Assembly: GCA_001789205.1 (NCBI GenBank)
Contig: MFYT01000011.1
Span: 16,444 to 80,443, forward strand
Reading direction: 5' to 3'
Length of the DNA stretch: 64,000 nucleotides
Source: Candidatus Raymondbacteria bacterium RIFOXYA2_FULL_49_16
GTDB taxonomy: Bacteria; Fibrobacterota; OXYB2-FULL-49-7; XYB2-FULL-49-35
A program made the translations under genes and the position numbers. Positions 4,076-46,045 of the stretch are shown in pieces. Numbering within the stretch: the first letter of the stretch is position 1; each line of letters starts with the position of its first letter. Below the pieces are notes generated by a model. It searched no databases. It was not told the DNA's origin and worked only from the letters and a program-made list of their open reading frames with translations.

Positions 4076-6757
4076 TCACGCTTTTGCCTGCTCAAGCATC
4101 TCACGCAGCGCCACAAGCAGGTTCTCCACAGTATAGGGCTTGGGAAGGAACCGGTATCCTTTTTTATGAATTATGTCGTAATGCGACCTGTCGTCCGTAT
4201 AACCGCTGGTAAACAGTACTGCCGGCGCCAATTGCGTTGCGTGTATACATTCCTCCGCAAACGCTATGCCCGTGCCATCGGGGAGGACAATGTCGGAGAT
4301 GACGGCCTTTATGACATTCGCCTTTTCCGTGTATATTTTCCTTGCATCGGCAACTGATCCTGCGGTTATCACCATGTAGCCGCTGGTTTCAAGCACCTGG
4401 ACCGCAAGTTCCCTGACATCAGTCTGGTCCTCGATAACAAGCACCAGTTCACCCCTGCCTTTTAACTCTTTGGCCCTTTTGGCCTTGTCCGGGACACGCC
4501 GTGGTTCAATATTCTCTCCGGAAGCTGGAAAATATACTTTGAATGCAGTCCCTTTGCCTTCCTGGCTATCAACCGTTATCCATCCATTGTGCTGTTTTAC
4601 AATGCCGTAAACCACCGAAAGTCCCAGTCCCGTACCCTTTCCGTCTTTTTTAGTGGTAAAAAACGGCTCAAAGATATGTTCCAAGTTTTGCGGAACAATG
4701 CCAGTGCCAGTATCGGCAATGGCCATGCATACAAAAAGGCCTGTGCGGGCAAAGGTATGCGTGTGGCAATACTCAACACCCACATTCTCGTTCGCTGTGC
4801 TTATTGTAATAGTCCCGCCGCTGGGCATGGCGTCCCGCGCATTGACAGCTAAATTCATTATCACCTGTTCAATAGTGCCTGCATCGCCGCTAACCGGTTT
4901 TAGGTCCTGTGGAAGTTCGGTCTTTACCCGCACATCCTCGCCAATGATGCGCTCAAGCATTTTGAGCAGTGAAGTCACGGTTTTGTTAAGGTCAAAAGCC
5001 CTGAATTCCATAGGTTGCTTCCGGCTGAATAACAAAAGCTGCCGGATTATATCTGCCGCGCGGTTGGCGTTCAGGGCTATTTGCTCCAGATCGTGCTTTA
5101 ATGGGCTATCTTCCTTCAGACGGCCTAGCGCAAGGGACGAGTATCCATGTATGGCGGTCAGAACATTGTTAATGTCGTGTGCCACACCGCCCGCAAGTTG
5201 GCCAATGGCCTCCATTTTCTGCGATTGCCGCAACTGGGATTCCATGCTGATCTCTTTCGTGATGTCGCGCTTGACAGCCACATAACTGACGATGTTTCCA
5301 ATAGCGTCGCGTACAGGCGAGATGTTCGCCTCTTCGGTATAATGGTCGCCATTTTTCTTCTTATTAACAAATCGCCCCTCCCATGTTCTGCCGTTTGATA
5401 TGGCCTCCCAAAGTTTCCGATAAAAAACGTTGTCCTGCATGCCGCTTCTGAGAATGCGTGGATTTTGTCCAACAGCCTCCTCGCGCGTGTACCCCGTGAT
5501 CCTTTCAAATGCGGGATTCACATATTGGATTGCCGCGGTGCTATCAGTAATGACCACCATTTCACCCGCCTGCGCGATTGCCGCAGCTAGACGCTCCCGT
5601 TCGATCTCGGCCCGCCGGCGCGCTGTGATGTCCCGGATGTTGCACTGGATCACCTTCTTGTTGTCCACAAGATAAACATTGCTGACGAACTCCACGTCCA
5701 CACACCTGCCATCAGCGGTTTTCAGGGGCAAATGCTCATAGCGTATGTATTCCTGTTGCTGCAATTTCAGAAAATTATCCTGGTTGGCTATAATGTCCTT
5801 TAAAAATCCCAGTTCCCATACGGTCTTTCCAAGGAAATACTCCTTTGAATACCCCAGGATTTCGATCAGAAACGGATTGACATCCACGATCACGCCTGTA
5901 TCAGCATCGAGAATCAGTATCCCGTCTTTTGCTGACTCAAAAAGACGACGGTACCGGACTTCTGAAACGCACCGCGCTTCCTCGGCCTGCTTGCGCTCGG
6001 TAATGTCCTGGATTGTGCCAAGAAACCGAAAAACACGGCCTTCCTCGTTCCGGACAGGCGTGCCTATCACAGTAAATGTTCTTTCCTCGCCTGATTCAGG
6101 CATGACCCGTACATCCACTTCGTACGGTTCGCCAGTGTCCAGTGACTTTTTGAAACACTCCCGCAAGAGAGTGGCTGTCTCCGGGGTATAATAGGCCGCT
6201 TCCTCCTCCTCTGTTGGCGGACCTTTTTCAAGGTCCCTGCCATATAACCTATATACCATGTCAGACCATATTATTGTCCGGGAACCGATGTCGTATTCCC
6301 AGTGGCCTATGCTGCCCAACCGCTGCGCTTCCTTGAGCTTCCGTTCTCTATCAAGAAGCGTTTGTTCAATCCTTTTCCGTTCAATCGAGTACCGGATCGA
6401 ACGTGAAAGCACGTACGAGTCTATCCGCTGTTTATGCAAATAATCCTGCGCGCCCATACCAAGGGTCACAAGCGAGATTTCATCGTCTTCGCAGCCGGTG
6501 AGGACCACGATGGGAACCGAGGGCGTGCGTGTGGCCACCTTTGCCAGTGTGTTCAGGCCTTGGCTGTCGGGAAGGCCAAGATCGAGAAGTACAAGGTCCA
6601 CCCCTCCCTGCGACAGGTGTTCGAGACCTATGGAGAGCCGGTCCGCATGGACAAGGTCGAGTTCGTCTGATTCGCCTATCAGTTCCTTGATGGCAGATGC
6701 ATCGTCCGGGTTACCATCGATCAAAAGCAGGTTGAACCTTGATTTTACTTTTTCCAT
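4076..6757 (-). CDS. Hybrid sensor histidine kinase (REC-PAS-PAS-PAS-HisKA-HATPase-REC)
   Basis: An 893-residue cytoplasmic signalling protein without membrane segments. Domains in order: N-terminal receiver (~8-125, phospho-acceptor D59 in LVLLDLGLPD); three PAS regions (~140-258, ~265-385, ~390-500), the last two with typical NPxFxxxTGY/LGY motifs; HisKA with H527 in GGVAHDINNVLTAI; HATPase (N-box NLAVNARDAMPSG, G1 DTGTGI, G2 GKGTGLGLSVVYGIV); and a C-terminal receiver (D822 in SDIVLPDGTG, K near 873). The H-box form and C-terminal receiver match hybrid kinases of the NtrB-like group. Receivers at both ends suggest it takes a phosphoryl input from another kinase as well as sensing through PAS. 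The output partner is not adjacent. ATG 6757 starts exactly at the receiver beta-1 strand region. Confidence 0.93.
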   Translation of the reverse strand: MEKVKSRFNLLLIDGNPDDASAIKELIGESDELDLVHADRLSIGLEHLSQGGVDLVLLDLGLPDSQGLNTLAKVATRTPSVPIVVLTGCEDDEISLVTLGMGAQDYLHKQRIDSYVLSRSIRYSIERKRIEQTLLDRERKLKEAQRLGSIGHWEYDIGSRTIIWSDMVYRLYGRDLEKGPPTEEEEAAYYTPETATLLRECFKKSLDTGEPYEVDVRVMPESGEERTFTVIGTPVRNEEGRVFRFLGTIQDITERKQAEEARCVSEVRYRRLFESAKDGILILDADTGVIVDVNPFLIEILGYSKEYFLGKTVWELGFLKDIIANQDNFLKLQQQEYIRYEHLPLKTADGRCVDVEFVSNVYLVDNKKVIQCNIRDITARRRAEIERERLAAAIAQAGEMVVITDSTAAIQYVNPAFERITGYTREEAVGQNPRILRSGMQDNVFYRKLWEAISNGRTWEGRFVNKKKNGDHYTEEANISPVRDAIGNIVSYVAVKRDITKEISMESQLRQSQKMEAIGQLAGGVAHDINNVLTAIHGYSSLALGRLKEDSPLKHDLEQIALNANRAADIIRQLLLFSRKQPMEFRAFDLNKTVTSLLKMLERIIGEDVRVKTELPQDLKPVSGDAGTIEQVIMNLAVNARDAMPSGGTITISTANENVGVEYCHTHTFARTGLFVCMAIADTGTGIVPQNLEHIFEPFFTTKKDGKGTGLGLSVVYGIVKQHNGWITVDSQEGKGTAFKVYFPASGENIEPRRVPDKAKRAKELKGRGELVLVIEDQTDVRELAVQVLETSGYMVITAGSVADARKIYTEKANVIKAVISDIVLPDGTGIAFAEECIHATQLAPAVLFTSGYTDDRSHYDIIHKKGYRFLPKPYTVENLLVALREMLEQAKA

Positions 6758-6874
6758 GAGTGCACGCCTTTTTCAAAACCTCATAACTGGTTTTTTTAAT
6801 CTATCCTACGTTGAAAATACGCCATCTGAACAAGACTACCCAAGGTGCAGTTGCATCAAGATATCTGACAATAG

Positions 6875-26400: not shown

Positions 26401-27716
26401 TAGCGCTCAATGTTCCAGGCATTATTCCGGCCGGCGAGTACGGTGAATTTGAATTTTTAGACAAAAACGGTTCTCCTGGCCTCAAGATCACCGGGCCAAT
26501 AAATCATCCACGCATAATAGGGAAAATGCGGGTCCACAATACCCGGTTTACCTTCCCCATGCTGATAGATATTGCCGCGGCAGAAGGAAGCGGGGGCAAG
26601 GATTTCATCGATTGGGACTGTACCATTATGGCGGGGAAAAACCTCCGGTATTATTACAATCATCGCCGTACCTCGCCCTTGCCCTTTATCGGAAAAGTGC
26701 TGCCGAAAAATATCAAGGACCAGATCGACCGCGGCGTCTACACGCTTATAACGTACCCCTTCTGCGAACTTACCCTCGATCGGTCATCCTGGCTCCACCT
26801 GGCAGGCATGCCCGGCCATAAAGATTTTAAGGTATCAGGCAAAATTTCCTCAAGACAGGGGACCGTGCATTATGCTGGTCTCAATTTCACGCAAGACATA
26901 GAGGCGGGTGTCGAATTCGACGAGCAAAACAATATCCCTATTCTTTGGGGATCGGCCACAACGATCCTTAGGACCGCCAACAAAAGTGATTTTGGCAAGG
27001 AAATCACCGTTACTTTATACATGAGAGATCCCAAGACCGGGGTGGAATACAAACGTGGTAAATTCAATGAATTCAGGATGGTTCCCTCGTCAAACATGAC
27101 CATCAACGACGACGGCGAGCTTGTCGACGCCGAAACCGACGCATACCAGGAAATGTTCGGTAAAAATCCAGAGAAATCCGCCAAGGATCTGGCCATGACC
27201 GAAGGCAAAGCCATGTTCGGCAACCTTCTCAGCAGATATGTTTCAAATTACCTGGAACGGAAAATTCTCGCCTTTGGCCGGACAAACATCAACCCGCTTC
27301 TCGGATTCAACGCAACGCCCGATGTCATGCGCTTCCAAATTGAATCTGACCGGTTTTTTAATTATATTGATATGTCTCTATGGACCATGGAACAGTTCCG
27401 GAAAGACCTGATCCAGAACATGGAGTTCATTACCGGGAAGTACTTCTTTGGCGGAAGCGTGTTCTTTAATTATTCGAGCCAGGTTGACCTCAACGAAAAC
27501 AACCAAGGCTTTGAAGTCGAACGGCTGCACCACCGGCTGGGGCTCGAACTCACTCCGTGGCGCTATCTGTACTTCAACATGGATTATGAGATCGGCGGCC
27601 TGTCCGGAGTCATAGGCGACGGTTTCAATGCGCGTGATTTCCGGTCAAACATCAGATTAAGGATACCGCTGACCAAAGTGTTCAACATCTTCATCCCTGA
27701 AGAAGAGAAAAAATGA
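23430..27716 (+). CDS. tamB: TamB/DUF490-family translocation and assembly module protein
   Basis: 1428 residues. One N-terminal membrane anchor (~6-27, LLSVAVLLVFIVAFYHSLNLI), then a very long beta-helical/groove periplasmic region of repeated I-x-G-x-(F/L) strands, and the DUF490 domain in the last ~400 residues (GLKITGPINHPRIIGKMRV..., FKVSGKISSRQGTVHYAGL, LYMRDPKTG). AsmA/TamB proteins bridge the periplasm and are implicated in outer-membrane protein insertion and phospholipid transport. Here it lies directly before bamA (ATGA overlap 27713-27716), as in many diderms lacking tamA, so it probably works with BamA. Confidence 0.9.
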
Positions 27717-30091
27717 AAACAAATAACCGCATTGTTTCCGTTGCATGCGCGCTGTGCGTCTGCACGGCCTCGCTTTTCGGACAAGAACAGACGCCAAGCC
27801 CTGCGCAGAAGAAGGTCTATGTGCGCGACGTGGCCGTAAAAGGCACTGTCAACACAAACGCGGGTCTCATCACCGCGAATTTCGCCCTGAAAAAAGGCGA
27901 CCGTTATTCGGCAAAGGACGTCCAGGAATCCATCCATACTCTTTACAATCTGGGGCTTTTCGCCGACATATCGATTGAGGCGATCTCTCTTGAGAACGAC
28001 TCATTCACCCTGGTCATCACCATGAAGGAGCACCCCATACTCGACAAAGTCCAGTTTTCCGGCAACGACGAAATTGATACTAAAGACCTTGAGGAAAAGG
28101 TCAATATTCTTTCAGGCACGGTCATTTCCCCGTCCGTTGTCCAAAAAGCAAAAAACCAGGTGGCCGACCTCTATACCGAGAAGGGCTTTCTACTCGCCGA
28201 AATCTCCCCTAAAACCTACGAATCAAAGGAGACGGGGAAGACCATTCTCGAGTTCGAGATCAAAGAGGGTAAAAAAGTCAAGGTCAAGGAGATCAGGATC
28301 AAGGGGGCCGTAGCGCTCAAGGAGAAAAAAATAAAAAAGGTGATAGAAAATACTAAGGAAGACCGGTGGTGGCGAAGCGGTGATTATAATGAAGATAAGT
28401 TCTTCGAAGACATGAAGCGCATTGAGGCCTACTACAACACCGAAGGGTTCCTCGACGCGAAAGTCCAGAACTGGGACGTCTCGTACAGCGACGACAAAAA
28501 AAACATGTACATCACCATCGATATTTTTGAGGGAACAAGGTATTTTCTGGGCAACGTCGTGTTCACGGGCAATGAAATCTTCGACGATAAGATCCTTATT
28601 CCCAAGATGACGCTAAAACGGGGCGATCTTTTCAATAACCAGGAATACGAAATATCCAAATTCAACCTGCAATCGCTCTATCGTGAAGACGGGTATCTCT
28701 ACATCTCTCTGCAGGACGAAAAAACCTACCGCAAAGATACCGTGGACATCATTTTCAGGCTGAAAGAAGGCATGCCGGCCTACATCAACCGCGTCATCAT
28801 CAATGGGAACACCAAAACCTGGGACAAGGTGGTCCGCCGCGAAATCGCATTGCACCCTGGCGACATTTACAGCCAGAGCCAGATGATGCTCAGCCAGCGG
28901 GACATTCTCCAGACAAACTATTTCGACCAGGCAACGCCCGATGTGCGTCCGAATGATGATGGAAGCATCGACCTGGTGATGAACGTGCAGGAGAAGGAAA
29001 GCGGCACAGGCCAGGTCTCGGCCAGCGCCGGCTATTCGCAACGCGACGGTTTTATCCTGGGCGCAAGCCTTTCAATGCCCAATTTCTCCATCACCCGCCC
29101 CTTTATGGAAGGTGCGGGCCAGTCGGTGGATCTGCAGCTCGAATATGGGAAATATTCAAAGCGATACGACGTGGGTTTTACCGAGCCCTGGTTCATGGAT
29201 ACCCCAACCCTTCTTGGGTTCCGCGGATTTTACTGGTGGCGCGACTGGCAATACAATGCCATCGAAGAACGGCGCAAAGGCGGTGAAATACGCGTGGGCA
29301 GAAGGCTGCGGTGGCCCGATCCCTATTTCAAGGTCTATTCAACGTATGATGTCAGTCTACGCGAATATCTCCAGGACGGCCTCATTATGGACGACGATTT
29401 TATTCAAGGAACCGTGATAAAAAACAGCGGTATTGAAAGCGCCTTATCGCTGACGCTTACCCGCAATTCGACGGACCTTCCCGACTTTCCCACCAAAGGG
29501 TCGGTTGTCGAATACAGCCCATCCATTTCCGGGTATTTCCTTGGCGGCGAATACAAGTACATCAAACATCGGTTCAGCGCCCAACTCTACCTCCCGGTCT
29601 TCTGGCAGTTCGTATACTCCCAGGCAATCAATTTCTCGCATCTCAACGGTAGTATCATAGGCAGATACGACCATTTCCTCGCAGGCGGTGTGAATTACGA
29701 AGGCGTTATCCGGGGTTATCCCGACCGTTCTTTCGGCGATCTGGTCATGGGTGAACATGTGGGATACAACCTCGCGGTTTTCTCATCCGAGCTGCGTTTT
29801 CCCATCATGGAACGAAGATTATATCTGGGCGTTTTTGCCGACTTTGGCAACACATGGGCCCAGCTGCGCGACATTAATTTTGCTGATCTAAAGACCGGTG
29901 TGGGCACGGGCGTAAAACTCCTGGTACCCATGCTGGGCCTCATCGGGTTTGACGTGGCCTGGGGTCTCAACGATTATCCCGAACCCGGCGTTGGCAGCGA
30001 CTCATACGGGAATGTTGTCACCCACGAACAGAAAACAGGGGAAAAACCGCCCTATTTCGAGTTCCATTTCAGATTTGGAAAACCATTTTAA
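27713..30091 (+). CDS. bamA: Outer membrane protein assembly factor BamA
   Basis: 792 residues. Signal peptide ~1-22 (ACALCVCTASLFG), five POTRA domains (~35-430; e.g. VYVRDVAVKGTVNTNAG, LDKVQFSGNDEIDTKDLEEKV, YFLGNVVFTGNEIFDDK, YINRVIINGNTKTWDKVVRREI) and the 16-strand barrel (~440-792) with the RGYPDRSFGD motif (the conserved RGF/Y loop 6 segment) and final aromatic GKPF. Essential insertase for outer-membrane proteins. Followed by skp 11 bases later. Confidence 0.96.
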   Translation: MKTNNRIVSVACALCVCTASLFGQEQTPSPAQKKVYVRDVAVKGTVNTNAGLITANFALKKGDRYSAKDVQESIHTLYNLGLFADISIEAISLENDSFTLVITMKEHPILDKVQFSGNDEIDTKDLEEKVNILSGTVISPSVVQKAKNQVADLYTEKGFLLAEISPKTYESKETGKTILEFEIKEGKKVKVKEIRIKGAVALKEKKIKKVIENTKEDRWWRSGDYNEDKFFEDMKRIEAYYNTEGFLDAKVQNWDVSYSDDKKNMYITIDIFEGTRYFLGNVVFTGNEIFDDKILIPKMTLKRGDLFNNQEYEISKFNLQSLYREDGYLYISLQDEKTYRKDTVDIIFRLKEGMPAYINRVIINGNTKTWDKVVRREIALHPGDIYSQSQMMLSQRDILQTNYFDQATPDVRPNDDGSIDLVMNVQEKESGTGQVSASAGYSQRDGFILGASLSMPNFSITRPFMEGAGQSVDLQLEYGKYSKRYDVGFTEPWFMDTPTLLGFRGFYWWRDWQYNAIEERRKGGEIRVGRRLRWPDPYFKVYSTYDVSLREYLQDGLIMDDDFIQGTVIKNSGIESALSLTLTRNSTDLPDFPTKGSVVEYSPSISGYFLGGEYKYIKHRFSAQLYLPVFWQFVYSQAINFSHLNGSIIGRYDHFLAGGVNYEGVIRGYPDRSFGDLVMGEHVGYNLAVFSSELRFPIMERRLYLGVFADFGNTWAQLRDINFADLKTGVGTGVKLLVPMLGLIGFDVAWGLNDYPEPGVGSDSYGNVVTHEQKTGEKPPYFEFHFRFGKPF

Positions 30092-31702: not shown

Positions 31703-33073
31703 ATGGAAATGCAGCATACCATCCGCTACCCGGTGTCAGTATCCGGCGTAGGATTGCACACGGGAAACACCACCACGGTAACCATAAAACCCATGCCCGA
31801 AAACACGGGCATTGTCTTTCAGCGCATGGACCTGAAAGACAAACCGCAGGTTGAGGCGGATATTGACTATGTAGTCTCACTCGACCGCGGTACCACCATC
31901 GGCCGCGACGACGTTAAGATCCATTCCATTGAGCACATTATGGCCGCGTTCCACGGCCTTAAAATCGACAATGTACTGATCGAACTCGACGGCGAGGAGG
32001 TGCCGCTTTGCGACGGCAGCGCCCTGGAATTTGTCGACGCGATAAAAAAAGCCGGGATTGAGGAGCAACACGAGGAACGGCGCTTCATCCATATCGAGAA
32101 ACCGCTGCTGTACGAGGATAGCCACAAGGCCCTGTCGATTTTTCCCGCTGAAAATTTCCACCTCACCTTCATGATTGATTACAACCATCCAGCGTTAGGC
32201 GCCCAGCACACCACTATGTTCGACATGGCCGAAGAATTCGTGCGGGAATATGCTCCCGCGCGCACCTTCTGTTTCCTTTCCGAAATACTCGACCTTTACA
32301 ACAAAGGTCTCATCAAGGGCGGCCGCATCAACAACGCCGTGGTAGTGCAGGACCAGAAACTGACCACCGAAACCGTGACCCAGCTGAAAAACCTCTTCAC
32401 CATTTCCGAAAACATCTTTGAAGGAAAAAACGGGTTTCTCAACAATACCGAACTCCGGTATCCAAATGAATTGTGCCGTCACAAGGCCCTCGACCTCATC
32501 GGCGACATCTACCTCATCGGCGCTCCGCTCAAGGCCCATCTGCTTGCGGCGAGAAGCGGCCATGCCGCGAACATTGAGATGGCGCGCCGTATCCGCAAGG
32601 CCAACATCAGACCGCGCGCCAGCGGTACAGGCAAATATATCTACGACATAGAACAGATCAAGGCAATCCTCCCCCACCGGTATCCTTTCCTCATGGTTGA
32701 CCGGGTGATCGAGATTGAAAAAGACAAACGGATTCTGGCCATGAAAAACCTGACCGTAAATGAACTCTTTTTCCAGGGGCATTATCCCAACTACCCGATC
32801 ATGCCGGGCGTGCTCCAGATTGAGGCACTCGCGCAGACTGGCGGTCTGCTCATGCATAACACCATCGGCGATATGAAGGAGAAGGTTACCATTTTTATGG
32901 GTATTGACGAATGCCGCTTCCGCAGGCCTGTCAGGCCCGGCGATACCTTGTTCCTTGAGGTCGAATTAACGCGGTTCAGGGGCAAAGTCTGCCTTATGAC
33001 CGGCCGGGCCATGGTGAACGGAGAAGTCACCTGCGAGGCCAAATTCATGATCTCGGTAATGGACAAACGGTAG
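31703..33073 (+). CDS. lpxC-fabZ: Bifunctional UDP-3-O-acyl-GlcNAc deacetylase / 3-hydroxyacyl-ACP dehydratase
   Basis: 456 residues, a natural fusion. LpxC half (~1-300): zinc ligands H78 (IHSIEHIM), H260 and D264 (CRHKALDLIGD). FabZ half (~312-456): LPHRYPFLMVDRV with H360 (QGHYPNYPIMPGV) and E374 (QIEALAQTGG) as the hot-dog catalytic pair. It commits to lipid A synthesis and also makes enoyl-ACP for fatty acids, so the two pathways share one polypeptide. This fusion is known in Bacteroidota and some related diderms. ATG 31703 follows AAAAGGAACT. LpxA follows 8 bases later. Confidence 0.95.
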   Translation: MEMQHTIRYPVSVSGVGLHTGNTTTVTIKPMPENTGIVFQRMDLKDKPQVEADIDYVVSLDRGTTIGRDDVKIHSIEHIMAAFHGLKIDNVLIELDGEEVPLCDGSALEFVDAIKKAGIEEQHEERRFIHIEKPLLYEDSHKALSIFPAENFHLTFMIDYNHPALGAQHTTMFDMAEEFVREYAPARTFCFLSEILDLYNKGLIKGGRINNAVVVQDQKLTTETVTQLKNLFTISENIFEGKNGFLNNTELRYPNELCRHKALDLIGDIYLIGAPLKAHLLAARSGHAANIEMARRIRKANIRPRASGTGKYIYDIEQIKAILPHRYPFLMVDRVIEIEKDKRILAMKNLTVNELFFQGHYPNYPIMPGVLQIEALAQTGGLLMHNTIGDMKEKVTIFMGIDECRFRRPVRPGDTLFLEVELTRFRGKVCLMTGRAMVNGEVTCEAKFMISVMDKR

Positions 33074-36942: not shown

Positions 36943-37545
36943 ATGAAACAAAAAATGCCGCAAATACTTTCAATTATCTGGGCCATTCTCGGCCTGATAG
37001 TTATCTGTATAATCCTTGGACTGCTCGGCCTCGGGTTCTATTCGGGTAAAATGCGGCCGGGAATTTTCATTACCTTTTTCATTAACCTGACCTTTGTATT
37101 TTTTCTCTTCACGCTCCCCCTCTTTTATACGGTAATCAGAAAAATCTTTTCGTTCGCCCTGTTCAGAAAAAGCAAACTCTTCGATGAAATCGCTGCGGCA
37201 AAGCGGCTGGAGTCATGGAAAGAGGCCTTTTCAAAGATCGAAGATGACCGTATCGGACAGATAACGTCCGGGGATCGCTTTGGTCTGGCCATGCATCTGT
37301 ACAACCATTTTCTACGCCAGGCAGTGCAAAATCTTTGTCTAACCGGGGAACAAAAAGCGCGGCTGGCCGACATTGCCGACTATTTTAACATGAACAACAA
37401 TGACCTTATGATTATCCATCGCCAATGCGCTAGAACCGTGCGCACGGCTGTTTCCGCCGGAGTCGTTAAAACCGAGATGCTCTACGAACTTGGGGAATAT
37501 ATCGGACTTGCCCGAAAAGAGCTCAACCAGATAAAAAAAGATTGA
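36943..37545 (+). CDS. Hypothetical membrane protein (two TM segments, cytoplasmic domain)
   Basis: 200 residues from ATG 36943 (AAAAAAGGACC upstream). Two N-terminal membrane helices (~8-32 and ~42-65), then ~135 residues of charged, helix-rich cytoplasmic sequence (SKLFDEIAAAKRLESWKEAF..., FNMNNNDLMIIHRQCARTVRTAVSAG). No family recognised. It precedes the two-component genes by 83 bases, on the same strand. A perfect AAAAGATT/AATCTTTT dyad spans its stop codon. Confidence 0.7.
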   Translation: MKQKMPQILSIIWAILGLIVICIILGLLGLGFYSGKMRPGIFITFFINLTFVFFLFTLPLFYTVIRKIFSFALFRKSKLFDEIAAAKRLESWKEAFSKIEDDRIGQITSGDRFGLAMHLYNHFLRQAVQNLCLTGEQKARLADIADYFNMNNNDLMIIHRQCARTVRTAVSAGVVKTEMLYELGEYIGLARKELNQIKKD

Positions 37546-37557
37546 AATTAATCTTTT
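37536..37557. promoter_or_regulatory. AAAAGATT-N6-AATCTTTT dyad
   Basis: Perfect 8-bp inverted arms (37536-37543, 37550-37557) with a 6-base spacer, overlapping the stop codon of the upstream gene and ending 71 bases before the sensor kinase. The 11-mer ATTAATCTTTT (37547-37557) recurs exactly at 42038-42048. It could be an operator of the adjacent regulator, or an A/T-only terminator. Confidence 0.45.
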
Positions 37558-37628
37558 GTCTTTTTCCCCCGTCCTGAAAGTATTTTTCAAGTAATTATCC
37601 TGAAATAAGTTATCCAGGAACGGGTATA

Positions 37629-39086
37629 ATGGTTAGATTTTTGCATCATCTGTCATTTAGAATGAGAAAAAGTATCAACACCCGTTTTACACTCATTTTT
37701 TTCATCCTGTTCGGCGGCCTTTTTGTTGCTGGCGGAGTTTTGATCAACCGCTATCTTCAAAAAGAGATGGGCGACCTTCTTGCGAAAAGAATGATCTCGC
37801 TGTCTCAATCGATTTCCTCTGAATTATCAGGCGTGTACGCAGAGTACCTCCTTGAATCAGATCCAAAGAGCAGGTTTCTGCAAACGGTTACCGCAAAACT
37901 AAAGGAAAAGAAAGAAATCTTCTCCCTTACGGAATTAACTATTCTCACCATGGATGCGCGCGTCATCGTTTCAACCAATCCGGGAAAGAACTCACAAGAA
38001 CCATATCGTTCACCAGGATTGCGTAAAGTCTTCCCCGGCGGCGATATGCAGCGGAATAAGATTTTCACCACCTCTCTCTACAACGTGCATGACGCACCCT
38101 GCATGTCTGTCTTCTTGCCCCTAAACAATCAAACAGGCGCTGCCAGGGCGGTTCTTGTTGTTGAAGCAAGTGCGGATTATTTTAAAATCCTCAGGCAGAT
38201 ACAACGCTCATTTTACGTCGCGGGTGTTGTCCTCATCATCCTGCTGCTTCTGTCTTCGTATTTAATAACACGATACATTACCCACCCCATCCGATCCCTT
38301 GAAAAGACAGCCGCCCAAATAGGAGCTGGCGGCCTTGGCATGCGGAGTTCCATTGACCGGGAAGACGAAATCGGCAATCTTGCGCGCTCCCTCAACAGGA
38401 TGAGCGCCCAATTGCAGAGCGACCGTACACAGCTCGATGCAAAAATTGCTTCGCTTATGATCCTTGCGGGCGGAGTAGCCCACGAGATCCGGAACCCCCT
38501 CAATGGGATCAACTTATACATTGATCTCATGGAACGCAAGACAAACGACCCGAAGTTCACCGAGATCCTGAAAAAAATAAAGAATGAAATAAAACTTATC
38601 GAATTCATCATTGCCCAGCTTCTTGATTATACAAGGCCTGTTGAACTGAAATACGAACCAGTACCCATACAGTACCTTTTCGACCGTGTGCGGGCCTATT
38701 GCGCCCAAGCCAAAATTAATGCATCCATTGCCCCAGGTTTGAACATCTGGGTGGACAGTGTCAAATTCATCCAGGTGCTTACAAATGTGCTCCAAAACGC
38801 GGTCGATGCGGCAGGCGATACCGGCCGGGTCCTTTTCGTGGCAGAGAAAAAAAGGGACGAGATTGTCATGGAAATTCACAATACCGGTGAACCCATAAAC
38901 GAAACCGATGCTGAGAAGTTTTTTGTCCCCTTCTTCACCACAAAACCCCGCGGTACAGGTTTGGGGCTTGCAATCTGCAGAAAACTCGTCGAATCTCATG
39001 GTGGCCAAATCCAGTTATCCAGGTCAAACCGTGAAGGGTTCGCGACCATGGTAAGAATAGTATTAAAAGGAGCCGCGCATGGCTGA
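37629..39086 (+). CDS. Sensor histidine kinase (periplasmic sensor, HAMP, HisKA, HATPase)
   Basis: 485 residues. TM1 (~20-40), a periplasmic sensor domain (~42-190), TM2 (~195-215), HAMP (~216-265), HisKA with H285 in GGVAHEIRNPLNGI, HATPase (~375-485; NVLQNAVDAAGD N-box, RGTGLGLAICRKLVESHGG). Partner of the NtrC-type regulator whose start codon lies 8 bases before this stop. The GGVAHEIRNPL H-box is of the NtrB/ZraS type. ATG 37629 is chosen for AGGA at 37617; a later in-frame ATG (37662) is possible since TATAAT overlaps the first ATG. Confidence 0.93.
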   Translation: MVRFLHHLSFRMRKSINTRFTLIFFILFGGLFVAGGVLINRYLQKEMGDLLAKRMISLSQSISSELSGVYAEYLLESDPKSRFLQTVTAKLKEKKEIFSLTELTILTMDARVIVSTNPGKNSQEPYRSPGLRKVFPGGDMQRNKIFTTSLYNVHDAPCMSVFLPLNNQTGAARAVLVVEASADYFKILRQIQRSFYVAGVVLIILLLLSSYLITRYITHPIRSLEKTAAQIGAGGLGMRSSIDREDEIGNLARSLNRMSAQLQSDRTQLDAKIASLMILAGGVAHEIRNPLNGINLYIDLMERKTNDPKFTEILKKIKNEIKLIEFIIAQLLDYTRPVELKYEPVPIQYLFDRVRAYCAQAKINASIAPGLNIWVDSVKFIQVLTNVLQNAVDAAGDTGRVLFVAEKKRDEIVMEIHNTGEPINETDAEKFFVPFFTTKPRGTGLGLAICRKLVESHGGQIQLSRSNREGFATMVRIVLKGAAHG

Positions 39087-40422
39087 TATTATTATCGTCG
39101 ACGATCAGGACAGCATCAGGGATACGCTGAAAAGCGCCTTTTCCGACTTGGGACACACGGTAAATACCTTTGCCACGGGTACACAGGCACTGGCAGCATT
39201 CCAGGAAAAGCCGGCGGACCTGGTCATAAGCGATGTCCGTATGCCTGAAATGGACGGTTTCAAACTGCTGCAAGCGATCAAAAACATTGATCCTTCTGTG
39301 AAATTCATCATGATGACCGCCTATAGTTCGATTGACGACGCTGTTGCCGCAATGAAACTCGGCGCACTCGACTATATCAGCAAGCCCTTTGATCTTATAG
39401 AGATAGAAACCAAAGTTAAAAAGCTCTTTACCACCAGTACTACCCCGCCGTTAAAAGCGTCCCAGTCAATTCTTGAACGGTATGACGGACATCCAAGCAG
39501 AAATGAGAACATGGTCTCAGTATATGAAATAGCCAAGAAAGCGTCGCAAAACAAATCCAATGTGCTTATCCGGGGTGACTCAGGCACTGGCAAGGAACTT
39601 ATTGCAAAAGCCATTCATTTCAATGGCCGGGAGGCTGATGGAAAACCCTTTGTCAAAGTCAACTGCGCCGCGCTTGCCGAAGGTATCCTTGAAAGCGAGC
39701 TTTTCGGCCACGAAAGAGGCGCCTTTACCGGAGCAATGGGCCAACGCAAGGGAAAATTCGAGATCGCTGACAACGGGACTCTCTTTCTCGATGAAATCGG
39801 CGACATCCCTCTCAACACGCAGGTCAAACTGCTGCGCGTCCTCCAGGAAAGGGAGTTTGAGAGGGTTGGCGGCAATGAGACCATCAGTGTCACAGTACGG
39901 ATTATCACCGCAACAAACAAGAACCTCGAAGAAATGATCTCTAACGGCACGTTCAGGGAAGACCTCTTCTATCGGCTCAATGTCATTCCCATTTACCTTC
40001 CCCCATTGCGCGAACGGCCCGAGGACATCCCTGATCTCATCACCTATTTCATCGGTAAAAACCAGGAGCACAACCCTGTAACAATCACCGGGTGCAGCCA
40101 GGACCTCATAGACACCCTTTGCTCATACCCGTGGCCTGGCAACATTCGTGAACTCGAGAATGTGATTGAACGCATGGTTGTTCTCTCGGACGACCCAATC
40201 CTCCGAAAGGAATTCCTTCCCTATGAGATCACGGCAAAATCAGGCGGCAAACAGGTGCAGGAGGCAAAAAACAGTTTTATCGACCGGACTTCAACCTATG
40301 AAAAAAACCTGATAGCGCAGGCGCTCCAAAAATGCAACTTCAAGCAGGTGGAGGCGGCACGGTCGCTGAAAATGGACCGCAGCACACTCAGGTATAAAAT
40401 GAAAAAATATGGCCTTTTATAA
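39079..40422 (+). CDS. Sigma-54-dependent response regulator (NtrC family)
   Basis: 447 residues. Receiver ~1-120 (phospho-acceptor D52 in VISDVRMPEMDG, K101-region), sigma-54 activator AAA+ domain ~145-375 (Walker A RGDSGTGKELIAKAIH; GAFTGA loop in ERGAFTGA that contacts sigma-54; Walker B GTLFLDEIGDIPL), and a Fis-type HTH (~405-447; FKQVEAARSLKMDRSTLRYKMKKYG). The GAFTGA motif is intact, so it can activate sigma-54 promoters directly. Start overlaps the kinase stop by 8 bases; the next gene starts inside its 3' end. Candidate targets with -24/-12 elements lie at 42099 and 44281. Confidence 0.95.
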   Translation: MADIIIVDDQDSIRDTLKSAFSDLGHTVNTFATGTQALAAFQEKPADLVISDVRMPEMDGFKLLQAIKNIDPSVKFIMMTAYSSIDDAVAAMKLGALDYISKPFDLIEIETKVKKLFTTSTTPPLKASQSILERYDGHPSRNENMVSVYEIAKKASQNKSNVLIRGDSGTGKELIAKAIHFNGREADGKPFVKVNCAALAEGILESELFGHERGAFTGAMGQRKGKFEIADNGTLFLDEIGDIPLNTQVKLLRVLQEREFERVGGNETISVTVRIITATNKNLEEMISNGTFREDLFYRLNVIPIYLPPLRERPEDIPDLITYFIGKNQEHNPVTITGCSQDLIDTLCSYPWPGNIRELENVIERMVVLSDDPILRKEFLPYEITAKSGGKQVQEAKNSFIDRTSTYEKNLIAQALQKCNFKQVEAARSLKMDRSTLRYKMKKYGLL

Positions 40423-40864
40423 AAACCAATCGTATATCCGCGTGTTTTTGCTCATCGCGATGCTTTTTGCCTATTCCTCCACTTGGGCGAATGATTCGCT
40501 TAACACCCGGATTGGCAATGATTCTGCCTACGATGTTTACGGGCTGGAAGCGCGACAGATATTCCTGCAAGACCGGCTGCAAAAGGATGAAAGCGAACGC
40601 GATTCTCTTATGGCAACGCTTGCCGCACTTGACATGGAAAACAACGGCCAGGACAATGACTGGGAGACTGGTTTTGGTCTGGAATCCAACCCGAAAAAAA
40701 GGGGATTTCCCAACCCACGGGCCATTGATCCGGCAAAGGAGAAACATCGGTCCGAACTCATCACCCGCATCGACGTCATCACCCCGCGTATCAAGGCGCT
40801 GGAAAAGGAGCTTAAAAAGAACAAACAATATATAAGGAAACAATTGAAAGGTGGTATTGAATGA
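40409..40864 (+). CDS. Exported coiled-coil protein of the two-component operon
   Basis: 151 residues overlapping the regulator 3' end by 14 bases. N-terminal signal (SYIRVFLLIAMLFAYSSTWA, cut after ~28). The mature part is charged: a helical/coiled section (~45-75, QIFLQDRLQKDESERDSLMATLAAL), a low-complexity linker (WETGFGLESNPKKRGFP) and a second coil (~110-148, RIKALEKELKKNKQYIRKQL). No family recognised. The location makes it a candidate for periplasmic sensing or for a structural partner of the next protein, whose start overlaps it by 4 bases. Confidence 0.65.
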   Translation: MAFYKNQSYIRVFLLIAMLFAYSSTWANDSLNTRIGNDSAYDVYGLEARQIFLQDRLQKDESERDSLMATLAALDMENNGQDNDWETGFGLESNPKKRGFPNPRAIDPAKEKHRSELITRIDVITPRIKALEKELKKNKQYIRKQLKGGIE

Positions 40865-42000
40865 CGCGATGCGCATGGCTGCTGCCGCTCTTCATAGGTC
40901 TCCTCATCGGTCTCCCCCCCTGGGCAGAACTCAAATGGAAGCCCGATTTTTCCTGTGAAATAGGCTTAAAACACGACGCAAACATCATTCTCCCTGATTC
41001 CGTGACTGATATTTCCACGTTCATCAGCGAAGGAAGACTTTCCAGCGGACTTTTTGTCCAAAAAGACCGGTCAACCATGGTGAAGCTCAGCGCTTCTGCG
41101 GAAAACAAACAACTATTCGCAGTCTCCGAATACATCACCGTCCTTGGCGGTTCGCTCCAGCTAAAGCACCTTTTCTCACACCTGACCATGCTTAACCTCT
41201 CCGTGGACGGCGAACGGTATTTTTCCGACAATCCCTACTATACATCGGGATTCATCAGCTGCGGAGCAACCTGGGGCCGCTATTTCAACGCGGAAATGAA
41301 CCTGGAGCTTTCCACGATCGCATCGCAGAAAACATTCCCCGACCTGTTCCGCACCGACCTCGACGACCGAACCAGGAAAAGCTTCTATTACGATTTCCGC
41401 CTTGTTGAAGCCGGGGCGCTTGTGAACAGGGCTCTGGGAAAAAAATTCACGGTTCGGCTTGATGCCAATGCGGGTTATAAGAATTTTTTCAACGACACGC
41501 ACGATTCAGACTATGTTGGTTCAACCCAGATCATCAATTACATAGACATAAATACCGGCGATACAATCTATGATTACATACCGCTCTATCAGCAAAACAT
41601 CCAACAACAGGATTGGATTATTTCTGGAGAGGGTTCCTGTACCTGGACACCCGCCCAAAACCTGTATATTATTTCCTCATTTCTGATCCGGCAGGTTCTC
41701 TCGAACGACCCATACTTTAATGCCAACCACCTTGCTCCAGCGGTCCGGGTTGAGTATAGCGTGAAGAAACTTGCCCTGAAATCTATTTTCAGTTACTATA
41801 AAGAAGTGTATCCTGACCGGGAGGCATATGCTGATGGAGAGGAAGAATCCAGCGTTTTTACAGGTCTTTCATGCGGTTACCGTATTACAAAGAGTATAAG
41901 AACTGGTGCGGGGATTTATTATAAGCAACTGGATTCATCGATTCCATTCTATTCATACTCAAAGACCATTACAACACTGAACTTTTCCTACTCTTTCTAA
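40861..42000 (+). CDS. Predicted outer-membrane beta-barrel protein, unknown function
   Basis: 379 residues from ATG 40861 (4-base overlap with the previous gene). Signal peptide (LLPLFIGLLIGLPPWA, cut ~22). The rest is a run of ~10-residue amphipathic strands (e.g. FSCEIGLKHDANIILPDS, FTVRLDANAGYKNF, IIYYKQLDSSIPF...) ending in TTLNFSYSF, a classical barrel C-terminus with terminal Phe. Probably an outer-membrane porin or anchor. It closes the operon kinase-regulator-coiled coil-barrel. No family recognised. Confidence 0.7.
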   Translation: MTRCAWLLPLFIGLLIGLPPWAELKWKPDFSCEIGLKHDANIILPDSVTDISTFISEGRLSSGLFVQKDRSTMVKLSASAENKQLFAVSEYITVLGGSLQLKHLFSHLTMLNLSVDGERYFSDNPYYTSGFISCGATWGRYFNAEMNLELSTIASQKTFPDLFRTDLDDRTRKSFYYDFRLVEAGALVNRALGKKFTVRLDANAGYKNFFNDTHDSDYVGSTQIINYIDINTGDTIYDYIPLYQQNIQQQDWIISGEGSCTWTPAQNLYIISSFLIRQVLSNDPYFNANHLAPAVRVEYSVKKLALKSIFSYYKEVYPDREAYADGEEESSVFTGLSCGYRITKSIRTGAGIYYKQLDSSIPFYSYSKTITTLNFSYSF

Positions 42001-42033
42001 GATGGTCTGATTAAGCCTCACCACATTCAGATG

Positions 42034-42048
42034 AAAAATTAATCTTTT
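42034..42048. promoter_or_regulatory. AATCTTTT element upstream of a -24/-12 promoter
   Basis: AAAAATTAATCTTTT (42034-42048) shares the exact 11-mer ATTAATCTTTT with the dyad at 37536-37557. It lies ~50 bases upstream of the -24 element at 42099, a usual distance for an NtrC-type activator site. Confidence 0.4.
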
Positions 42049-42098
42049 TTCACCCACATTTTTCATTCAAATCATTGAAAAACATCATCTTCCGAATA

Positions 42099-42113
42099 GG
42101 CATGCTTTTTGAT
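42099..42113 (+). promoter_or_regulatory. Candidate sigma-54 (-24/-12) promoter, copy 1
   Basis: GGCATG-CTTT-TTGAT fits the sigma-54 consensus GGCACG-N4-TTGCA with GG and the -12 G 12 bases apart. The only notable deviation is A for the second base of the -12 GC. A start near 42124 gives a ~32-base leader to the ATG at 42156, containing AAAAAGGAGG. A near-identical box occurs before the gene at 44327. Confidence 0.55.
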
Positions 42114-42155
42114 GTACGATAGGTAGATAAGTAAAAACTCAAAAAGGAGGGTTAT

Positions 42156-42770
42156 ATGAAAAAACTTATCACAGTGATTTCGGGTCTTGCGGTTGGAGCA
42201 GTCATGGCAGCGAGCGTACCGGCTAATACTGAAGTTGATGCCACCCAGGCACAAACCCAGACATGGGAACAAAAGCAGGAAGCAATCAAGACGTGCGCTG
42301 CTGAGCAAACACGGATTCAAAACCAAATCAAGACGCTTACCCAGACAAAAGAAGCGGCTCAGACTGACGCTGAAAAAGCACAGTTGCAGGAACAGATCCA
42401 GCAAAAGGAAAGTGAACTTCTGCAGGCCCAGACACGTTACCAGTCCATGATCGCCAGTCAGACAAAATACAAATACGAATTTAAGGACATGAACGGTGAC
42501 GGTGCCAATGACAATGTTGTCGGCGTAAACGATCCCACTGCCAAAGCCTATATGTACAAAAACGGCTATGGCTATGGTTATGGATTTGTCGATGAAAATG
42601 GTGATGGCATCAACGATTATTTCGTGGACGCAAACGGTGATGGCATCTGCGACCAAAACGCCGAAATGACCAAAACCCGCCTGCAGAGCCGTGAAAAGGT
42701 AAAAGGCAAATCACAGCACGGCAGCCATGGCTCAGAACAGGATAGAACCGGGAGCCGCGGTTCAAAATAA
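42156..42770 (+). CDS. Secreted coiled-coil protein with DxNxDG calcium-loop repeats
   Basis: 204 residues from ATG 42156 behind AAAAAGGAGG. Signal peptide (ISGLAVGAVMAASVPA, cut ~24). A Gln/Glu/Thr-rich coiled coil (~25-105, e.g. QNQIKTLTQTKEAAQTD) is followed by three loops of the EF-hand/thrombospondin type-3 style: DMNGDGANDN, DENGDGINDY, DANGDGICDQ, which probably bind calcium. A short Gly/Tyr-rich stretch (GYGYGYG) separates the first two. The tail is Gly/Ser/His-rich. No known family; likely an exported stress or surface protein controlled by the candidate -24/-12 promoter. Confidence 0.7.
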   Translation: MKKLITVISGLAVGAVMAASVPANTEVDATQAQTQTWEQKQEAIKTCAAEQTRIQNQIKTLTQTKEAAQTDAEKAQLQEQIQQKESELLQAQTRYQSMIASQTKYKYEFKDMNGDGANDNVVGVNDPTAKAYMYKNGYGYGYGFVDENGDGINDYFVDANGDGICDQNAEMTKTRLQSREKVKGKSQHGSHGSEQDRTGSRGSK

Positions 42771-42802
42771 CTATAACAGAAGTTGTCCTGATTACAAGTC
42801 AG

Positions 42803-42834
42803 AACAGAGGCGGGGAACATCCCCCGTCTCTGTT
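42803..42834 (+). terminator. Rho-independent-type terminator
   Basis: AACAGAGGCGGGG (42803-42815), loop of 6 bases, CCCCGTCTCTGTT (42822-42834): a 13-bp stem with one G-U pair, followed by TTTAATG. It separates the coiled-coil repeat gene from the next gene. Confidence 0.75.
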
Positions 42835-42871
42835 TTAATGCATTTTAAACACCTCAACAAAAGGAGCCTGT

Positions 42872-44107
42872 ATGACGCTGAAAACAATTGCTGCCGCCGC
42901 AGTGTATGCCGCGCTGTTTTCTTTTCCGGCAATGGCCGCACCTGCGGTAGATAGTTCGGGCGCATTCACCGGAACCGTGTACGATTCGGCAGCGCAGATA
43001 CCATTGGAAGGCGCGCTCGTGGTCTTGAGTCAGTATACTATCAATCCGTTGGAAATCGATACGTTCTTAACTGGCGCTGATGGAAAATTCAGCTTCACCA
43101 ATCTGCTCACTGGCAGCAGAAACAAGTATACGATCTCCGTATCCGCCGATAGCTTTCGCAGTACCTTCAAATCCGACCTGGTACTTGCAAAGGACCAGAC
43201 TGATACGATAAATTTCTTCCTTATTGAAACCGATTCAGTCATTATACCTCCGGTAGATAGCGGCATTATTGTCGGGACCGTGTATGATACCGTCACCAAT
43301 GATCCCATCGCCGGCGCACTGGTCATTCTGAACCAGGGAACCGGGAGGGTGACGGTATTTGTCGATTCTATAAGGACCGATGCCAGCGGCAGCTATTCAT
43401 TCGAAAACCTTTCTTTTGCCATACGGTTTATGGTTTCAGTATCCAAACAAGGGTATTTGCCTGGTGTCAGTGGAGGAACCTATCTTTATTCGTCCACGCC
43501 CATCGATACCATAGATTTTCATCTTATTCCCATGGACACATCCAACAGCTGGATCATCAGCGGAAAAATAACCGCAGATTCATCCACCGGAGAGACGCTC
43601 GAAAACGTGTCAGTAGTCTTTACGCAACGATATGGAACGGAGAACAAATATACCGGCACTACTGATGCCGCGGGTGTATACACCATAATGCTGCCAGCCC
43701 AGGAACTCGGATACACGGTAACAGCGTCACTCGACGGGTATATTCCGTTTGAACAGAACCATTCGGTCTCCGCGGATTCCAGCGAATTGGATATAGTACT
43801 CGTATGGGACGGCAATACCTCAATGGAGGTAGCCGCGGTAAATACAGGAAATACGACCCTGCAAACCTTTCCCAATCCGTGCAAGGATGTTTCGACTATA
43901 TCCTTGCATATGGCAAAAGCCGGCCAGGTCAATGTCGCTGTATATGCGATTGATGGCACATTGATCTCCACGCTTGCCCATGGCGCAATGAATCCTGGGG
44001 CGTATTCCCTACCCCTGCAAACCAACCGCCTGGCAGCCGGTGTCTATGTAGTCAGGGTAAAAACCGGAGACATTCATCTGTCGCAAAAACTCTTGCTGAC
44101 AAAATAA
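42872..44107 (+). CDS. Secreted carboxypeptidase-regulatory-like protein with T9SS sorting domain
   Basis: 411 residues from ATG 42872 (AAAAGGAGC). Signal peptide (AAAVYAALFSFPAMA, cut ~23). Three carboxypeptidase-regulatory-like beta domains (~25-125, ~130-225, ~230-310; GTVYDSAAQIPLEGALVVLS, GTVYDTVTNDPIAGALVILN, GKITADSSTGETLENVSVV) are followed by a T9SS type A tail (TFPNPCKDVSTISLHM, VNVAVYAIDGTLISTL, AAGVYVVRVKTGD...KLLLTK). Such domains are adhesive scaffolds. Transcribed after a terminator, so probably from its own promoter, which I cannot define. Probably a surface adhesin or binding protein. Confidence 0.83.
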   Translation: MTLKTIAAAAVYAALFSFPAMAAPAVDSSGAFTGTVYDSAAQIPLEGALVVLSQYTINPLEIDTFLTGADGKFSFTNLLTGSRNKYTISVSADSFRSTFKSDLVLAKDQTDTINFFLIETDSVIIPPVDSGIIVGTVYDTVTNDPIAGALVILNQGTGRVTVFVDSIRTDASGSYSFENLSFAIRFMVSVSKQGYLPGVSGGTYLYSSTPIDTIDFHLIPMDTSNSWIISGKITADSSTGETLENVSVVFTQRYGTENKYTGTTDAAGVYTIMLPAQELGYTVTASLDGYIPFEQNHSVSADSSELDIVLVWDGNTSMEVAAVNTGNTTLQTFPNPCKDVSTISLHMAKAGQVNVAVYAIDGTLISTLAHGAMNPGAYSLPLQTNRLAAGVYVVRVKTGDIHLSQKLLLTK

Positions 44108-44132
44108 GACTTCATTACTCCTCACTTGCATT

Positions 44133-44171
44133 AACCCTATCGGAAGCATGGCACATGTTTCCGATAGGGTT
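44133..44171 (+). terminator. Long hairpin terminator
   Basis: AACCCTATCGGAA (44133-44145) and TTCCGATAGGGTT (44159-44171) pair fully; the loop also holds an internal CATG/CATG pair. No T-run follows directly, so termination strength is uncertain. Confidence 0.6.
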
Positions 44172-44178
44172 CTCAATG

Positions 44179-44220
44179 AAAGATTAAAATTTATCCAAGA
44201 ATGATTAATAGTAATCTTTT
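44179..44220. promoter_or_regulatory. AAAGATTA ... TAATCTTTT inverted elements
   Basis: AAAGATTA (44179-44186) and TAATCTTTT (44212-44220) are widely spaced inverted copies of the element seen at 37536-37557 and 42034-42048, with a further AAAGATAAAA just before the -24 box (44271-44280). Position ~60-100 bases upstream of the -24 element suits an activator binding site. Confidence 0.4.
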
Positions 44221-44280
44221 CTATAATATGCAGTTTACGTAAGCCATTAATAAATTATATTTTATCACAGAAAGATAAAA

Positions 44281-44295
44281 GGTATGCTTTTTGAT
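44281..44295 (+). promoter_or_regulatory. Candidate sigma-54 (-24/-12) promoter, copy 2
   Basis: GGTATG-CTTT-TTGAT differs from copy 1 (42099) in a single base over 15. The -12 element again reads GA instead of GC. A start near 44305 yields a ~22-base leader to ATG 44327 with AAAAAGGAG in it. Confidence 0.55.
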
Positions 44296-44326
44296 ATTTA
44301 TTTATACAAGCAAAAAGGAGTTGATC

Positions 44327-44626
44327 ATGCTGAAAAAAATAGCGCTCTCAGGCTTTTTGATAATCATTTCGGGCTTACTGCCTGTCTTCTCCCAGAATAC
44401 TCCGGACGCTTCCAATACAAAAACCTTCGGGTATGTCATTGATGATAAAAACAACAACGGCATTACCGACATCTTTGAAACTGATTCACTTCCAAAAGCC
44501 GATTCCTCGGCAAACACGGTCAACCCAGGCCCTGTTGATGAAATAAGGCAACGGTGGGGCCATAGAAATCTTCATGGCCAGCATGGAAAGGAATTTGACC
44601 GGGGTGAATCCCCTCACGCCCATTGA
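44327..44626 (+). CDS. Small secreted protein with one calcium-loop-like motif
   Basis: 99 residues from ATG 44327, behind AAAAAGGAG; the upstream in-frame extension lies in promoter DNA and was rejected. Signal peptide (ALSGFLIIISGLLPVFS, cut ~22). The mature part carries DDKNNNGITDIFETD, an EF-hand/TSP3-like loop, and a basic His/Arg-rich tail. It shares the promoter type, the loop type and the His/Gly-rich tail with the 42156 gene, so the two form a small family. Function unknown. Confidence 0.65.
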   Translation: MLKKIALSGFLIIISGLLPVFSQNTPDASNTKTFGYVIDDKNNNGITDIFETDSLPKADSSANTVNPGPVDEIRQRWGHRNLHGQHGKEFDRGESPHAH

Positions 44627-44647
44627 CCTAAATACTGTAACACTACA

Positions 44648-46045
44648 ATGAACCTGCTGCTCATCCTGCTTATTGTCGTTTGCCCCCTTTTTTCACAAAC
44701 CTATTGGCAAAACATCCGGTTGACCTATTCCGCTGAGTACAATGGCGAACCATCCATGGCGCTCAATGGTACGCAGGTTGGTATCGCCTATGAAGGTTAT
44801 AATTTCGGCAACGATGAAATACTCCTCCTTGTCTCCAACGACAATGGGGCAACCTTTTCGCCACCAATCAGGGTATCGAACAACGACAGTGCTTCATGGA
44901 AGCCAAAAATTACGGCAACATCAACAGGATTTGATATTGTTTGGGAAGACAATAGGACGGGAAAACGGGAGGTATATTATGCTCGGTATTCCTCCGGAAC
45001 CATGGGCCCTACCCTAAAAATAAGCAGTGGCAATGTCTATTCGGCCTTTCCCGCAATTACCGCGAATGGAAACGATATCTATTGTGTTTGGGAAGATTTC
45101 CGTGATGGGAATGACGAGATTTATTTACGGAAGTATGTTTCTGGCGTATGGTCTCCGGAAAAACGACTAACAACAGACGACAGCACCTCCTGGGGCGCGG
45201 ACATTGCACGCGACCCAGTCACCGGAACTCTCCACGTTGTCTGGTTCGATTACCGGACAGGAAACGACGAGATATATATAATCAGTTCAAATGATGACGG
45301 CACAACATGGAGTTCTCCACGCAACCTGAGCAATGACGCGGCGAATTCCTGGGAACCCCGGATTGCGGCATATAATAATCGTATAGACGTTACCTGGTAT
45401 TCCTGGCGAAGCGACTTTGTTTCGTACGAGGTCTGGTACGCAGGATTCAATGGCGAAACATGGACTGTTCCGGAAATAGTAAGCGATCCTTACGCTGACT
45501 CTAAATGCCCTTCCATTTCGTCTGACGCATTAGGAACCATTATTGCCTGGGAAGATTACTGCCAAGGAAACGATGAAATCTACGCGGCCTATAAACGCCA
45601 CGATTCAACGACCTGGGGGAACAAACGTATCACCAACAACGATGCGGATTCCTATGGCGCTGATTGCGCGGCCAATGCTACAAATCTTTTGTTTACCTGG
45701 TTCGATTATCGTGATACTATTGACCAGATCTATTTTACGAAAGGTCTGATTACAGACATGACCTCTATAGAACAAGAGAGGGTGTCTCACCAAAAACCAG
45801 CTATTACCATCGGACCAAATCCATCGAACAATCTGATCTCTGTGAAAATTGCCGGACAACACGCGGCCGGAACCATTGAATTGTATGACTGCCGAGGCGC
45901 ATTACACCATCGGTATTCCTGCACTGCCCAATCCCTGGCCGAGAGCGTCTTGTGGGACACATCCCGCCTGCCATCGGGCATGTATGTGGTTAAAATCCTC
46001 TTGGGCAAAACAGTCTGGACACGGCACGTGGCCCTGGTCAGGTAG
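44648..46045 (+). CDS. Secreted sialidase-like beta-propeller with T9SS sorting domain
   Basis: 465 residues from ATG 44648. Signal peptide (NLLLILLIVVCPLFS). Repeated blades WxDxRxGNDEIY (EGYNFGNDEILLLVSNDNGATF, WEDNRTGKREVYYARY, WEDFRDGNDEIYLRKY, WFDYRTGNDEIYIISS, WEDYCQGNDEIYAAYK, WFDYRDTIDQIYFTKG) suggest a six-bladed propeller of the BNR/sialidase type. The sialidase Arg triad is not recognisable, so an enzymatic role is doubtful and a binding role possible. The C-terminus (ITIGPNPSNNLISVKI, GTIELYDCRGALHHRY, PSGMYVVKILLG...RHVALVR) is a T9SS type A sorting domain. Confidence 0.83.
   Translation: MNLLLILLIVVCPLFSQTYWQNIRLTYSAEYNGEPSMALNGTQVGIAYEGYNFGNDEILLLVSNDNGATFSPPIRVSNNDSASWKPKITATSTGFDIVWEDNRTGKREVYYARYSSGTMGPTLKISSGNVYSAFPAITANGNDIYCVWEDFRDGNDEIYLRKYVSGVWSPEKRLTTDDSTSWGADIARDPVTGTLHVVWFDYRTGNDEIYIISSNDDGTTWSSPRNLSNDAANSWEPRIAAYNNRIDVTWYSWRSDFVSYEVWYAGFNGETWTVPEIVSDPYADSKCPSISSDALGTIIAWEDYCQGNDEIYAAYKRHDSTTWGNKRITNNDADSYGADCAANATNLLFTWFDYRDTIDQIYFTKGLITDMTSIEQERVSHQKPAITIGPNPSNNLISVKIAGQHAAGTIELYDCRGALHHRYSCTAQSLAESVLWDTSRLPSGMYVVKILLGKTVWTRHVALVR

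Follow-up and report, generated by a model that had tools for sequence, protein, structure and literature searches.

A two-component system of the NtrC type, probably autoregulated, quite likely drives two local units encoding exported proteins through the operator GATT-N6-AATC and promoters of the sigma-54 type. The window, i.e., the whole stretch of 64,000 nt analysed here, lies within a genome of 5.43 Mb (112 contigs), probably of the phylum Fibrobacterota, that was searched as well. Computation directly showed which genes are present, rpoN among them, as well as the shared operator and box, how rare both are genome-wide and that both recur upstream of an orthologous target. Since this operator and this type of promoter reappear in a second genome, ahead of the same secreted protein, the arrangement looks like a real regulatory circuit of a well-known type.

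The kinase-activator operon and its genomic setting

Four genes on the forward strand (37629-42000) overlap one another end to start. The first (37629..39086) encodes a membrane sensor histidine kinase with HAMP, HisKA, and HATPase_c domains, whose true start may be the ATG at 37662. The second (39079..40422) encodes a putative sigma-54 activator that, by its predicted domains, belongs to the NtrC type, combining in one protein a receiver (PF00072, 3.2e-31), an AAA+ domain with the GAFTGA motif (PF00158, 7.8e-70), and a Fis-type helix-turn-helix (HTH_8; PF02954, 3.2e-12). The third (40409..40864) encodes an exported 151-aa protein, a probable coiled coil without a family assignment, and the fourth (40861..42000) encodes an exported 379-aa protein that is presumed to be an outer-membrane barrel, given its signal peptide and terminal Phe. 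The predicted structure of the latter was unusable (pLDDT 31), and no homologue was detected among 167 genomes of the phylum. The initial annotation had placed a GAFTGA activator, its kinase, an exported coiled coil, and a barrel in one operon, and all these features were found where it had located them.

The regulon proposed there would need sigma-54, and the same genome does carry rpoN, as a 560-codon open frame in contig C23 (PF04552, E 1.4e-58). The activator has no clear orthologue in the phylum, since its best full-length match in the other genomes is only 46% identical, and no close relative was detected among the 167 genomes. Within the phylum, the most similar kinase pairs share about 30% identity; they accompany a different kinase-regulator subfamily and were discarded. 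An Rfam search of the window gave no match. Elsewhere in the window, among lipid A genes, a single ORF (31703-33073) reads as an apparent LpxC-FabZ fusion, and a BamA-like ORF (27713-30091) lies near these genes; both readings come from the translations.

The predicted target genes

The first predicted target gene (42156..42770, forward strand) encodes a secreted 204-aa protein formed by a helical hairpin and acidic DxNxDGxxD repeats, and it is followed by a strong intrinsic terminator (42801..42836, forward strand). The predicted structure of this protein (mean pLDDT 52) is confident in the helical hairpin only, and the acidic repeats of the family may bind calcium. The second predicted target unit starts with a gene (44327..44626, forward strand) for a small protein of 99 aa, also secreted, that may be distantly paralogous to the 42156 product. 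The gene 21 b behind it (44648..46045, forward strand) encodes a BNR-repeat-like protein with a T9SS sorting tail and is probably on the same transcript. The term "envelope" given to the system is a putative label taken only from the signal peptides and the type of genes, and a surface or matrix role for the targets is our guess.

The candidate operator GATT-N6-AATC

The perfect dyad that had been noticed before the kinase operon (37536..37557) was confirmed, with the structure AAAAGATT-N6-AATCTTTT, the spacer being GAAATT. Upstream of 44327, both elements previously described are present, i.e., AAAGATT at 44179-44185 and AATCTTTT at 44213-44220, but they had been wrongly paired, joining the outer arms of two separate sites. 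The counterpart of the dyad at this place is GATT-AATAGT-AATCTTTT (44203..44220), and it is accompanied by a degenerate second copy, GATT-AAAATT-TATC (44182..44195). As for the element upstream of the 42156 gene, its right half-site AATCTTTT (42041..42048, forward strand) is good, but the left half is poor, since its arm is GATG (42030-42033) and lies 1 base too distant.

The exact sequence GATT-N6-AATCTTTT occurs in three places of the 5.43-Mb genome, two of them in the window and the third within a protein kinase gene. The combined pattern, with a sigma-54-like box (GG-N3-G-N4-TTG) placed 54-84 b beyond the operator, also gave three matches in the genome, again two in the window and one within a gene, and the control with the reversed pattern gave none in this genome. 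When the operator was combined with a stricter box, four matches were obtained in the 167 genomes. A random spread of the motifs would have spoken against the regulon, but two of the three exact operators and both copies of the exact box described below are at this locus. The distances from the operator centre to the GG of the box are 61.5, 71.5, 84.5, 92.5, and 93.5 b, and they share a common helical phase within 2.5 b, an observation made afterwards that is suggestive. In contig C58 of the same genome (L089, ~96268-96285), GATT-N6-TATCTTTT lies ahead of a gene for a secreted 476-aa protein, with GGCCCGAAAATTGCT 29 b downstream; this would be a possible distant target of the same regulator.

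The dyads could also be read as A+T-rich transcription terminators instead of activator sites, a reading that we find hard to credit. Both the dyad at 37536 and its counterpart in the second genome described below overlap the preceding gene's stop codon and end in a T run, as a terminator might, but the stems they would form in RNA have little stability (-3.4 to -7.3 kcal/mol vs -28.6 and -31.4 kcal/mol for two nearby hairpins). Before 44327, moreover, a strong hairpin already lies upstream of the operators, and terminators need not share GATT-N6-AATCTTTT or its spacing to the box. That hairpin (44133-44171, -31.4 kcal/mol), located between 42872 and the 44327 operators, has no T run.

Sigma-54-type boxes and predicted promoters

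The two near-identical GG-N10-GA boxes reported before the target genes are indeed present on the forward strand. The predicted promoter of 42156 (42098..42115) contains GGCATGCTTTTTGAT at 42099-42113, with a predicted +1 at about 42124, and that of 44327 (44280..44297) contains GGTATGCTTTTTGAT at 44281-44295, with a predicted +1 at about 44306. The 15-mer GGYATGCTTTTTGAT occurs exactly twice in the 5.43-Mb genome, at 42099 and 44281 of the window, and nearly all the matches with 1-2 mismatches that could be placed (L003-L030) are within genes. If 42156 and 44327 are paralogues, the shared 15-mer could be partly inherited.

A PSSM built from the 29 intergenic Salmonella sigma-54 sites listed in PMC3844500 ranks these two boxes first and second among the 3,572 upstream positions in the window; sites of the window with higher scores, e.g., 54084, are within genes. 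Their absolute scores are modest (9.6 and 8.1, while all 29 training sites score at least 15.6), mainly because of the A at -12 and the A before GG. Neither box passes a strict GG-N10-GC test, and neither does the box of the second genome, which has GT. By their sequence, however, boxes 1 and 2 resemble bound sigma-54 promoters once the -12 variants are considered. Among the promoters bound by sigma-54 in Salmonella, STM0649.S has TTGAT, and pspA and pspG have TTGTA, so that T or A replaces the C at -12, as A does here, although these three promoters carry T before GG where our boxes carry A (PMC3844500). The two boxes are variants even locally, since sigma-54-like sites elsewhere in the genome have TGG...TTGCA; four such sites (L108, L117, L119, and L122) are intergenic, precede genes, and resemble ordinary sigma-54 promoters.

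A further candidate promoter, absent from the initial annotation, is found before the kinase operon (37630..37645, forward strand). Its sequence, TGGTTAGATTTTTGCA, passes the strict GG-N10-GC test (37631-37645), ranks seventh among the 3,572 upstream positions, and lies 73 b beyond the kinase dyad. This GG-N10-GC overlaps the called start codon of the kinase (ATG 37629), the alternative start being ATG 37662 (MRKSINTRF...). We consider this promoter tentative because, were it used, the kinase would have to be translated from ATG 37662, leaving a leader of just ~6 b and no evident ribosome site.

It has to be considered whether the boxes could instead act as elements of an RNA leader, pairing with the ribosome site (CTTTTTG/CAAAAAG), with transcription coming from sigma-70 promoters located further upstream. 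In fact, CTTTTTGA is complementary to TCAAAAAG before 42156, seven bases pair before 44327, and a TTTACG-16-TATATT match is found at 44234-44261. However, the folding of the leaders is no better than that of shuffled sequences (z -1.2 and +0.3), and sigma-70-like matches occur at chance level (13 vs 12.6). In the second genome, the box GGTACGCATATTGTA has no complement to its ribosome site, but the sigma-54 positions are kept. This explanation is thus very improbable.

Conservation of the operator and box before an orthologous gene

A scan of the species genomes with the whole 42156 protein gave nothing, but the repeat region alone retrieved two loci (L184 and L185). The second of them encodes an unrelated repeat protein and was rejected. 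The first, in Fibrobacteres MAG-297 (JAEUSG010000635.1), encodes an orthologue of 205 aa with 60% identity, and this is the only other genome in which it was found. Searches for 42156 homologues in 60 genomes, and with the C-terminal half in 167 genomes of the phylum, yielded nothing convincing outside the window.

The MAG-297 locus was found without using the operator or the box, and nevertheless the orthologue is preceded by an exact operator, GATTAAAACTAATCTTTT (6682-6699), and by a sigma-54-type box, TGGTACGCATATTGTA (6781-6796); the start codon comes 48 b past the predicted +1. Apart from these elements, the DNA between the upstream gene and the start of the orthologue shows only a poor alignment to the window. 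Simulations of this region with random sequence of matched composition produced the operator in 5.5e-5 of the runs, and the operator together with the box in 0 of 200,000. Of all the evidence for a function of both elements, this conservation is the strongest. The orthologue comes after genes for a glycosyltransferase-2, an unassigned 944-aa protein, and a GH42M-domain (GH42-type) protein, and the contig (1-9493) is perhaps a polysaccharide locus.

This contig also bears on the identity of the binding protein. The operator and boxes might be real and yet be used by another sigma-54 activator or DNA-binding protein, the adjacent two-component system being a mere neighbour. Another activator could be the binder because there are 27 strong sigma-54-activator domain matches in the genome of the window, and the MAG-297 target lies on a contig of 9.5 kb without an activator gene. 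That contig is short, however, and the exact operator is essentially confined to the locus, where one copy lies directly before the kinase-activator operon. A site directly before its own operon is the usual place for autoregulation. Thus, we consider a different binder unlikely and favour the local activator.

The claim that one regulator drives all the genes of this locus can therefore be kept in part. The support is strongest for 44327 and, by way of the MAG-297 orthologue, for 42156; for the kinase operon, where the box and the called start codon overlap, the claim is weaker. It is unsupported for the T9SS-tailed protein gene at 42872, which is located behind the strong terminator and lacks a box.

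Proposed mechanism

According to our proposal, the membrane kinase (37629) would phosphorylate the NtrC-type activator (39079), which would then bind GATT-N6-AATC, centred 60-95 bases upstream of the sigma-54 promoters. NtrC-type activators remodel sigma-54 polymerase with ATP, and the 39079 protein would likewise remodel the RNA polymerase by ATP hydrolysis. The outputs would be the secreted helical-hairpin protein (42156) and, from 44327-44648, the small secreted protein and the T9SS-sorted surface protein, together with probable autoregulation of the operon encoding the kinase, the activator, the coiled coil, and the barrel. The upstream sites to which activators of this type bind are often some 70-150 b away from the promoter (PMC3844500).

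Comparison with known systems

NtrC-type two-component systems that control local regulons form a large class of well-known design, and the present system belongs to it. In ZraPSR of Escherichia coli and Salmonella, sigma-54 promoters drive the own operon and a nearby gene for a small exported protein (PMC4987338). As in that system (ZraS/ZraR and the periplasmic ZraP), there are here a membrane kinase, an NtrC-type activator, and a nearby gene encoding a small exported protein. However, the kinase scores 127.2 against a ZraS cut-off of 479 and the regulator 389.2 against 760 for ZraR; there are more exported genes, the operator is different, and zinc is not implied. Neither Pfam nor NCBIfam gave a match to a ZraP-type domain in the 40409, 42156, and 44327 proteins. 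Judging from these comparisons, the system would work like ZraPSR but is not a member of it.

The best NCBIfam scores of the kinase and regulator were those for AtoS and AtoC (182.9 and 474.1 bits), with the same domain order, but they are under the curated cut-offs (646 and 714), and there are no acetoacetate genes nearby. PrsK/PrsR is the sigma-54 two-component system of PEP-CTERM/exopolysaccharide loci, and our system resembles it in the regulator match to the PrsR model (358.7 bits), in its exported targets, and in the location of the MAG-297 target after a glycosyltransferase gene. The scores are nevertheless below the cut-offs (TIGR02916, 85.4 vs 300; TIGR02915, 358.7 vs 502.6), and the tails on two of the exported proteins here are of the T9SS type, not PEP-CTERM.

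Significance

A limited literature search found no described sigma-54 regulon for this lineage. One broader reading is that the sigma-54 of the lineage commonly uses A or T at -12, so that scans for GG-N10-GC miss part of the regulon, and that the system controls an unnamed family of secreted hairpin/acidic-repeat proteins acting in a cell-surface matrix; we give it only an outside chance. For one sigma-54 two-component system of the lineage, the analysis would supply a concrete operator together with predicted promoters and targets, and it draws attention to a hitherto undescribed secreted protein family. New genomes can be probed with the operator, which has sufficient specificity for this use. 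Control of the bacterial exterior by sigma-54 has been proposed (Francke et al., 2011; PMC3162934), and the system is in line with this idea.
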